Below, piece by piece: positions 6,596 through 8,142 of a stretch of 35,145 nucleotides of DNA. Numbering within the stretch: position 1 is the first letter of the stretch; every line of letters starts with the position of its first letter. Under the pieces are notes generated by a model that saw only the letters and a list, made by a program, of their open reading frames with translations, did no database searches and was not told the origin of the DNA. The stretch spans positions 1 to 35,145 of the forward strand of contig JAAYPR010000052.1 in assembly GCA_012519705.1 (NCBI GenBank), given 5' to 3'. Origin of the DNA: Campylobacteraceae bacterium. Lineage in GTDB: Bacteria > Campylobacterota > Campylobacteria > Campylobacterales > Campylobacteraceae. A program made the position numbers and the translations under genes.

Positions 6596-6703
6596 ATTTT
6601 ATTTAAATTTGAAAATTTAACGCTAATTTTGGTCTCTAAATTCAAAGTGTAATTATAAATACATATTTTTCTTAAAATTTACTTTTTATTTGTGTATAAG
6701 GCG

Positions 6704-6738
6704 TATAATCTTGAGTAATATAAATTACACTTAAGGAG
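6704..6738 (+). promoter_or_regulatory. promoter -10 and ribosome binding site of the HdeD-like gene
   Basis: A perfect TATAAT lies at 6704-6709 within GGCGTATAATC. A strong AAGGAG at 6733-6738 is 6 nt before the ATG at 6745. The leader would be about 30 nt. No good -35 is seen at the classical spacing. Confidence 0.6.
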
Positions 6739-6744
6739 AAAAAA

Positions 6745-7359
6745 ATGAAAGTTTTTGAGGGAAGGTTTTTAGACATTGTTGCAAAAGATTGGTGGGTTAT
6801 CCTACTAAGGGGTATAGTTGCTGTACTTTTTGGTATAGCTCTATTTTTTGTGCCTGAAGCTGGGGTTCTTACTTTTGTATTTCTTTTTGCCTTTATGGCT
6901 CTTTTTGATGGGGCTTTGGGAATTTACATAGGTATAGACTCAAGGAAGGAAGTTAAAAAATGGTGGGTCATACTCTTAGGCGGGATTGCAGGGGTTATCG
7001 CTGGAATATTAAGCCTAATTTTCCCTATAAATGCCGCTTTGGTTCTGTTTCTTTTCATATCTGCTTGGATAATAGCAGTTGGAATTTCTCAAATAGTTGC
7101 TGCGATAGAGCTAAGAAAAGAGATAGAAAATGAGTGGCTTATAATAATTTCTGGAGCTCTATCTATAATAGCAGGTATAATTTTAATAGCAAACCCGCTC
7201 TCTGGAACCTTGGCTCTTGTTTGGTTGTCTGCTGGTTTTGCTGTTGCTTATGGAATCATGCTAATAATAGCTTCTTTTAAGTTTAGAAAAATCAAAAAAG
7301 AGCTAGATAAAGAAAGAGATAACGGTCCTGTTGAGGTAAATATACATAAACAAGATTAA
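6745..7359 (+). CDS. HdeD-family (DUF308) membrane protein
   Basis: This 204-residue protein has six membrane helices arranged as three similar helix pairs, each introduced by a W-rich edge (DWWVILLRGIVAVLFGI, KKWWVILLGGIAGVIAGI, NEWLIIISGALSIIAGI). Such internal repetition is characteristic of the DUF308/HdeD family. E. coli HdeD is an inner-membrane protein linked to acid resistance at high cell density; the molecular mechanism is unknown, and the role here is inferred from the family only. The C-terminal 25 residues are charged and probably cytoplasmic. The gene is monocistronic, with its own -10 (6704-6709) and an inverted repeat directly after the stop codon. It borders the repeat-rich region that follows. 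Confidence 0.85.
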   Translation: MKVFEGRFLDIVAKDWWVILLRGIVAVLFGIALFFVPEAGVLTFVFLFAFMALFDGALGIYIGIDSRKEVKKWWVILLGGIAGVIAGILSLIFPINAALVLFLFISAWIIAVGISQIVAAIELRKEIENEWLIIISGALSIIAGIILIANPLSGTLALVWLSAGFAVAYGIMLIIASFKFRKIKKELDKERDNGPVEVNIHKQD

Positions 7360-7364
7360 AAAAA

Positions 7365-7392
7365 TTAGGGTGTTTGCTTTATAACACCCTAA
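7365..7392 (+). terminator. hairpin after the HdeD-like gene
   Basis: TTAGGGTGTT (7365-7374) and AACACCCTAA (7383-7392) form a perfect 10-bp stem with an 8-nt loop, 5 nt past the stop codon. The T content downstream on the plus strand is modest. On the minus strand the stem is followed by TTTTTTT, so the hairpin may also stop transcription from the right. Confidence 0.7.
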
Positions 7393-7424
7393 ACTTAAAT
7401 TTTAAAAAATTTTATCTACTAACC

Positions 7425-7465
7425 TCGTCATTGCGAGCTGGACGAAGTCCAGCGTGGCAATCCAT
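7425..7465 (+). repeat. 41-nt palindromic repeat, copy 1
   Basis: The repeat runs from TCGTCATTGCGAG through the hairpin GCTGGACGAAGTCCAGC to GGCAATCCAT. Its reverse complement matches 7915-7955 at 40 of 41 positions by direct comparison. The CGTCATTGCGAG...GGCAATCC layout is a REP-like pattern I recall from many unrelated bacterial genomes. Confidence 0.8.
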
Positions 7466-7612
7466 TTAGATAAAGCTTTAGTTAAATTTATGGTTTTTTG
7501 TTTTTAAATTTAGAATTAAAATTTTAGTTAAATTTAATAGTTTTTTCTTTTTGAATCTATAATTAGAATTTATCAAAGTAGAAATCTTATAAATTCTTTA
7601 AACTTTTGTTTG

Positions 7613-7694
7613 ATGGATTTTACTTCGCTACGCTCGTAACTGCCGAGACGCATTCGCTGCAGACGCTTCGTCACTTCGCTCCTCGCAATGACGA
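7613..7694 (-). repeat. palindromic repeat, copy 2 (long interior)
   Basis: The repeat is in inverted orientation: ATGGATTT at 7613-7620 and TCGCAATGACGA at 7683-7694. The 62-nt interior is richer in G+C and contains several CTTCG/CGCT motifs, unlike the compact copies. It may be a nested or rearranged copy. Confidence 0.6.
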
Positions 7695-7783
7695 CTCTGA
7701 TGGATTTAGAGTTCTTTTTACTTGTAGAATTTTTATATTCTATATAAAAACCTTGATTCTATTATAAATTTTATCTACCAACA

Positions 7784-7815
7784 TCGTCATTGCGAACGAC
7801 AGTGAAGCAATCCAT
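7784..7815 (+). repeat. palindromic repeat, copy 3 (short)
   Basis: The copy reads TCGTCATTGCGA then ACGACAGTGAA then GCAATCCAT. It keeps both conserved ends but has a short interior in place of the hairpin of copy 1. Confidence 0.7.
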
Positions 7816-7914
7816 TTGAATAAATTTTAAATAAAACTACTGGTTGATTTTTTATAAAATCATCTACAAAATTTTCTCAAGTAGAAAACTTGTAAATTTA
7901 TCAAGTTTTTATGT

Positions 7915-7955
7915 ATGGATTGCCACGCTGGACTTCGTCCATCTCGCAATGACGA
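7915..7955 (-). repeat. 41-nt palindromic repeat, copy 4
   Basis: The copy reads ATGGATTGCCACG, GCTGGACTTCGTCCA and TCGCAATGACGA. It is the inverse of copy 1 with one mismatch, so 7425-7955 is a segment flanked by long, nearly perfect inverted repeats. Confidence 0.8.
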
Positions 7956-8012
7956 TGGAAGCTGTTTTTTAATGAATTTAGCTTTAAATCACTCTAAAAT
8001 TTCAAAAACTAG

Positions 8013-8047
8013 ATTGCCACGTTTGCTACGCAAACTCGCAATGACGG
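8013..8047 (-). repeat. palindromic repeat, copy 5
   Basis: ATTGCCAC (8013-8020), the hairpin GTTTGC-TAC-GCAAAC and TCGCAATGACGG (8036-8047) make an inverted-orientation copy with a different stem from copies 1 and 4. A decayed sixth copy may lie at 8072-8098 (TTCTTATAATGACGA). Confidence 0.7.
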
Positions 8048-8142
8048 TGGAGAGTGGTCACTACAAGAAGCCAAAGACTTCTTATAATGACGATAGAAAT
8101 TGTTTTTATAAATTTACACAGTAAATTCTATAACAAAACCGC

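Follow-up and report, generated by a model that had tools for sequence, protein, structure and literature searches.

Results

Repeats in the gap between hdeD and hemH

The window, by which we mean the whole stretch of 35,145 nucleotides analysed here, belongs to a Campylobacter genome, assigned to that genus by Campylo_MOMP and available as a 52-contig draft of 1.72 Mb (G000), and it includes the ftsI-hemH junction (6596-8142), in which hdeD is followed by an array of short palindromic elements (REPs; Table 1). Two paired units, A and B, are joined by a recurring spacer and followed by one REP with flanks of another type and by a degenerate REP. Copies 1 and 3 carry flanks of types U2 and D2, and the flanks of copy 4 are untyped. 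Promoter-like patterns in the gap were no more frequent than in shuffled sequence (4 found versus 3.8), and no recombinase was recognised by eye among the window ORFs of at least 90 aa.

Table 1. Features of the hdeD-hemH gap, in window coordinates.
Feature	Position	Strand	Remark
Terminator-like stem-loop, 3' of hdeD, distinct from the REPs	7365-7392		Pattern match; 2 found versus 0.4 in shuffles
Recurring outer flank, type U2, of copy 1	7407-7425	+	7407-7436 matches 7766-7795 at 93%
CGTC REP copy 1	7426-7464	+	Tag 7426-7429; stem base 7430-7434/7457-7461; tail CCA
CGTC REP copy 2, long form with second module	7614-7693	-	
Second module inside copy 2, between GC and AATCC	7620-7664	-	Edge ambiguous owing to an A run
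Tags-in spacer linking units A and B	7694-7784		By eye; similar spacers in, for example, L065, L076 and L085
CGTC REP copy 3	7785-7814	+	
CGTC REP copy 4, near-identical to copy 1	7916-7954	-	
Unit A: copies 1 and 2, tags outward, AT-rich spacer of recurring type	7426-7693	+	
Unit B: copies 3 and 4, tags outward, spacer related to that of unit A	7785-7954	+	
CGTC REP copy 5, flank types U1/D1	8010-8046	-	
Degenerate REP, tag and palindrome remaining	8058-8092	-	Read from the sequence; partial match in the repeat search

The original prediction had described the segment between copies 1 and 4 as flanked by 41-nt inverted repeats about 450 bp apart, which might recombine and flip the segment or fold into a long stem. 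Direct comparison confirmed the repeats: the arms (7425-7465 and 7915-7955) pair as inverse complements at 40 of 41 positions, the sole exception being 7438, and a repeat search extends them to 50 nt at 90% complementarity, 431 nt apart. In 20 dinucleotide shuffles of the window, no 41-nt inverted match exceeded 31/41, so the arms, taken as raw sequence, lie far beyond chance. The long stem is likewise predicted for the 531-nt segment as single-stranded DNA (-104.7 kcal/mol, z -14.1). As for the higher G+C content ascribed to these islands, it holds for the REPs themselves (48-57%) but not for the gap as a whole (31% versus 34% for the window), with 17% in the DNA separating copy 1 from copy 4.

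The arms belong to a repeat family multiplied in this genome

The head motif CGTCATTGCGA is far from unique to the gap: it occurs 140 times in G000 (73 forward and 67 reverse copies), and the same motif read backwards does not occur there at all. The 13 other genomes of the genus contain 0-6 copies each. The two arms are therefore members of a small DNA-hairpin repeat family that has multiplied in this Campylobacter genome, and the layout CGTCATTGCGAG...GGCAATCC, which had been described as widespread, is indeed so. We read the window and 54 further stretches around matches (189,280 bases covering 136 of the 140 exact heads); in these, 189 heads have no more than one mismatch, and both stem-base arms are intact in 142 elements, which comprise 89 distinct cores. 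A search of Rfam at gathering scores gave no match.

Against this family background, the near-identity of copies 1 and 4 loses its significance. Opposite-orientation pairs of elements no more than 1 kb apart number 76, and the pair of copy 1 and copy 4 is the only near-identical one (at most one mismatch). Any two elements are near-identical at a rate of 2.5%, by which approximately 1.9 such pairs would be expected among the 76, so no invertible segment is needed; the match is what chance within the repeat family would give and is no sign of a switch. It would follow if two neighbouring units happened to terminate in almost identical core variants. Moreover, copy 1 retains both the outer flank (tttatctac...) and the inner flank (catttagataaa) usual for its type, and the segment thus does not look inverted; its orientation is the same as in other copies of the unit. 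An interior flipped by recombination between the 41-nt arms, serving as a switch or hotspot, is a reading that the 40/41 identity and the spacing might invite, but these observations, together with the lack of promoter excess and of a recognisable recombinase, make it extremely improbable.

Anatomy of the elements

Each element consists, in order, of a CGTC tag, ATTGC, GA, a variable palindromic core, GTG or GAA, GCAAT, and CTA or CCA (59 and 55, respectively, of 119 tails). The stem base is thus a fixed 5 bp (ATTGC/GCAAT) followed by a small internal loop in which GA lies opposite GTG or GAA. That the REPs would adopt a hairpin form as single-stranded DNA was shown by covariation together with the sequence itself. 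In an alignment of 32 distinct elements with 22-nt cores (21 from G000 and 11 from other genomes), 58 cells were changed on both sides of a pair, versus 17.5 in shuffles, and 93% of cells pair; in 29 elements with 20-nt cores (11 from G000 and 18 from others), the corresponding values were 53 versus 16.3 and 92%, in both cases against shuffles that ignore the relatedness of elements. Two other measures were unexceptional: the number of pairs changed on both sides in the 22-nt cores was 6 versus 5.0 (reached by 89 of 500 shuffles), and further pair types in the 20-nt cores numbered 13 versus 13.4 (403 of 500 shuffles).

The ends of the elements appear to be constant, and between them the palindromic core is exchanged with compensatory changes. 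In the core alignments the ends are invariant because the rows were picked by exact ends; when sites were anchored on the tail instead, a perfect 11-nt head was present in 104 of 157 and at least 10 of 11 positions matched in 130 of 157, in stretches that were themselves selected by head. Most of these tail-anchored sites carry the unpaired terminal CGTC that characterises CGTC REPs. Folded as DNA and compared with shuffles, copies 1, 5 and 4 gave predicted z values of -3.6, -2.7 and -1.6, respectively, and copies 2 and 3 folded no better than shuffles (z about -0.1).

The loops follow a rule of their own. Among the distinct cores of G000, 56 of 81 tri- and tetraloops are of the form G..A (39 GNA and 17 GNNA), versus a mean of 10.0 and a maximum of 22 when the loop letters were shuffled over 2,000 rounds; in other genomes of the phylum the count is 69 of 119 (shuffle mean 11.8, maximum 21), although cores share descent, which overstates the independence of these counts. 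Taking one locus per genome, a G..A loop was found in 13 of 27 other genomes. The type expected on the opposite strand, T..C, occurs once in the G000 set and not at all in the other-genome set. GNA and GNNA loops are reported to yield DNA mini-hairpins of extraordinary stability (PMC4686876). This loop rule on the CGTC strand, with the opposite-strand type near absent, suggests that selection acts on the CGTC strand in its single-stranded DNA form.

Paired units, spacers and a second module

Among 125 pairs of neighbouring heads 10-420 bp apart, 53 are arranged tags-out, 49 in tandem and 23 tags-in. The tags-out distances are confined: 49 of 53 fall within 124-267 bp and none is shorter. The AT-rich flanks are of recurring types (U1/D1, U2/D2 and U3/D3), and in the 82 elements typed on both sides they are matched in 69 and mixed in 13. 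Same-orientation neighbours are near-identical in 7 of 72 cases, above the 2.5% rate for any two elements.

Copy 2 contains a second module of approximately 45 nt. A search for the core of this module gave 10 sites in the stretches read, distributed over the window, L054, L063, L065, L073, L076, L077, L140 and L147; all 10 lie in REPs with different cores, directly after the GC of the 3' stem base (GT in L076). The module is shorter in L076 and in the second site of L147, and has another right half in L063, L065, L073 and L140; related variants in L069 and L078 escaped the core search, the one in L078 lying inside the core at another GC/AA. The second module resembles a nested element with this GC/AA place in REPs as its target.

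Filled and empty sites in another genus

Traces of insertion were found in G355, a genome of the same family but a different genus. A 531-aa ORF there (L121, 37-1632), part of a 1,335-aa open frame, contains two tags-out REP dimers with heads at 596/691 and 1184/1279; both are in frame and encode SLRASKASVAIHK. When 150 genomes of the family were searched with this gene, 20 matched, G355 included. In 16 other genomes, residues 1 or 2 to 182 form one aligned block, with further blocks, where listed, at about 227-252, 345-378 and 427/437-531. In five aligned orthologues the FLYPN motif leads directly into the following conserved block, with no first dimer between them, and the second site is empty in the same manner. 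The relatives' genes lacking the dimers, parsimony shows that tags-out dimers would have inserted as units in G355; in the window's genome, dimers presumably inserted or moved in the same manner, although the spacers of the G355 dimers differ from those of the window's units. The original suggestion of mobilisation in trans fits these filled and empty sites. A third insert in the G355 gene is another G+C-rich repeat. Pfam gave no match for the 531-aa piece and DUF559 in the wider frame.

Gene context and sister loci

Gaps with REPs are convergent in 25 cases, tandem in 30 and divergent in 2, versus 5, 61 and 7 among the gaps without REPs in these stretches. Within the stretches read, no retained ORF contains a head, ORFs shorter than 150 aa with a REP in them having been dropped. 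The enrichment in convergent gaps and the rarity in divergent ones could be taken to mean that REPs persist for a role at RNA 3' ends, as terminators or stabilisers of mRNA, and are mobile in appearance only. Against this, runs of at least five T follow the tail in just 7 of 119 elements, a separate terminator-like stem stands 3' of hdeD, the GNNA loops are mostly not GNRA (GNRA in 3 of 17 in G000 and 3 of 19 in the others), and the elements occur sporadically and as inserts in coding sequence; we regard such a role as very unlikely to explain them.

ftsI was seen in 8 of 14 sister hemH loci, and this junction varies between species: it is empty apart from 1-31 bp, or it holds a 411-aa ORF or an hdeD homologue. 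The stops of ftsI and hemH are 20, 1, 31 and 30 bp apart in L032, L036, L042 and L043, respectively; in L034 and L037 an hdeD homologue (34-38% identical) lies between the two genes in the orientation opposite to that of the window; and in L038 and L040 they are separated by 1,269 bp, which in L040 contain the 411-aa ORF. None of the eight loci with ftsI has a REP at the junction. Heads with at most one mismatch are absent from 13 of the 14 loci, and the single head of L042 lies outside the junction and lacks the REP palindrome. The imported look attributed to the repeats is thus borne out by this REP-free junction and by the excess of heads in G000 over its congeners.

Distribution and the search for an enzyme

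The pattern CGTCATTGCGAGN{5,30}GGCAATC was found in 34 of 397 genomes of the phylum, in 14 of 68 genera, with the highest copy numbers in G237 (160), G000 (66), G088 (58), G355 (39) and G094 (38). Within genus g9 it is uneven (G088 58, G233 32, G149 7, other species searched 0-3), and the occurrence of REPs in the phylum is sporadic. G237, a 1.9-Mb genome of the same family, has 586 exact copies of CGTCATTGCGAG, an extreme burst. In other bacteria at least 117 stretches carry the motif, many of them from metagenome bins; the matches listed include Alpha-, Beta- and Gammaproteobacteria, Oscillospiraceae, Sphingobacteriaceae, Treponema, Fibrobacter, Dehalococcoidia, Melainabacteria, Eggerthellaceae, Opitutaceae, Rickettsia, Helicobacter canis and others. 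At least 120 stretches of viral contigs also carry it, possibly as prophage or mis-binned host DNA. The REPs of these viral contigs (L281-L400) are often tags-out pairs approximately 20-24 bp apart, far closer than in G000.

No enzyme could be linked to the repeats. The 52-contig draft has no match to Y1_Tnp (PF01797), Rpn (PDDEXK_2) or IS110, the last being a Piv-type family linked to Neisseria; the suggestion that a RAYT/IS200-type transposase might lie elsewhere in the genome thus found no support. Y1_Tnp is present in 124 of 397 genomes, namely in 8 of the 34 with REPs versus 116 of the 363 others, and in 2 of the 13 genomes with at least seven REP copies; Rpn is present in 14 of 397 (1 of 34 REP-bearing genomes, below its cut-off) and IS110 in 48 of 397 (1 of 34), the overlaps being intersected by hand. 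None of the three families shows a positive association with REPs over the 397 genomes, in keeping with the absence of an associated transposase in CGTC REPs. An autonomous partner was sought by eye in 4 REP-bounded stretches of G000 and 26 stretches of six other genomes, without a transposase being found; Pfam on three ORFs of REP-bounded stretches gave one C-5 methylase. Similarly, at 197 of 237 motif loci (117 from genomes and 80 of 120 viral), whose 1,483 ORFs were clustered and inspected by eye, no transposase was seen beside REPs in the clusters shown.

Discussion

CGTC-tagged REPs have been described as a superfamily lacking a dedicated transposase (Di Nocera 2013, PMC3733652), and in that paper how they multiply was left open and an early loss of CGTC REPtrons was offered as one possibility. 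The family described here agrees with those REPs in the unpaired CGTC tag, the A-T start of the stem, the lack of a linked transposase, the intergenic position between convergent or unidirectional genes, the predominance of tags-out among inverted pairs and a CCA tail in about half of the elements. It differs in its stem (5 bp, an internal loop and a variable core versus 8-9 bp), its loops (mostly 3-4 nt versus 4-5 nt), its tails (CTA as common as CCA versus mostly CCA) and its pairs, in which tandem arrangements are frequent, whereas in PMC3733652 HH, meaning tags outside, predominates, TT is rare and HT negligible. Unlike those REPs, its tags-out heads are at least 124 bp apart. The text of PMC3733652, figures apart, contains neither 'campylobacter' nor 'helicobacter'; the available text of PMC12306157 does not mention Campylobacter and contains CGTC once, in its reference list. 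A literature search with the letters of the motif returned a plant-microsatellite match and no bacterial-repeat title among the matches listed.

REPINs and GTAG REPs with their RAYTs resemble the present family in the tag, the hairpin and the tags-out dimers as a unit, but the tag here is CGTC and G000 has no RAYT. The REPs might nevertheless be relics of RAYT-driven REPs whose transposase has since been lost, a reading that this resemblance favours and with which the loss of REPtrons suggested in PMC3733652 would agree. The distribution of Y1_Tnp, which shows no association with REPs even where these are numerous, renders such an origin quite unlikely, although the enzyme may have been lost separately in each lineage. 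Additionally, the rickettsial palindromic elements RPE-4 and RPE-6, placed in CGTC-4 and CGTC-1, respectively, in PMC3733652, belong to the same superfamily and insert into genes in frame as in G355; they differ from the REPs of the window's genome, where no head lies inside a kept ORF of the stretches read.

A further comparison concerns the neisserial mosaics of dRS3 and RS, in which, according to PMC3898611, short intergenic palindromes in hundreds of copies bound recurring sequences of 30-160 bp. By analogy, the REPs could serve mainly as sites for homologous exchange or phage integration, with arrays growing by recombination rather than transposition. The shared layout, the assignment of dRS3 to CGTC-1 (PMC3733652) and its role as a prophage integration target (PMC3898611), the mixed flanks of some elements, the near-identity of same-orientation neighbours and the presence of the motif on viral contigs all accord with this. 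The palindrome and the spacers are different, however: the stem base ATTGC/GCAAT departs from the dRS3 signature ATTCCC(N8)GGGAAT that, with RS repeats, marks a NIME. IS110 is absent from G000 and from 33 of the 34 REP-bearing genomes, and the in-frame insertion of whole dimers in G355 is left unexplained. We therefore consider this explanation unlikely, if less so than a RAYT origin.

We believe it likely that the segment is a mosaic of CGTC-tagged REPs in a new form, which spread as single-stranded DNA hairpins by means of a putative trans-acting factor. Each REP, as single-stranded DNA, would form a hairpin with an unpaired 5' CGTC tag, a fixed base, an internal loop, a variable core, closed most often by a GNA or GNNA loop, and a tail. 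REPs often pair with their tags outward around recurring AT-rich spacers, the window comprising two such units and two more REPs, and the tags-out dimers would insert as units. Movement would probably proceed via the single-stranded hairpin, recognised at its tag and stem base by the trans-acting factor, which would be none of the Y1/RAYT, IS110 or Rpn enzymes detectable in G000. The elements may lie mainly between convergent or tandem genes since insertion would be least harmful there. Dimers moving as units do not explain the tandem pairs, which make up 49 of 125.

More broadly, we tentatively suggest, as a possibility that we still hold to be doubtful, that CGTC REPs in general move as single-stranded DNA hairpins and have no dedicated transposase, their spread relying instead on a host function that is widely shared. 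If true, this would explain why ends are identical in many phyla while bursts occur in single species, and also the insertion of dimers as units, the DNA mini-hairpin loops and the rewriting of entire cores, perhaps through copying from arm to arm. The tables of 397 genomes argue against any of the three enzyme families being the general driver in the phylum, and the loop rule and the filled and empty sites together point to the single-stranded DNA hairpin as the moving form. These results supply substrates for testing as well as REP-rich and REP-poor species for comparison.
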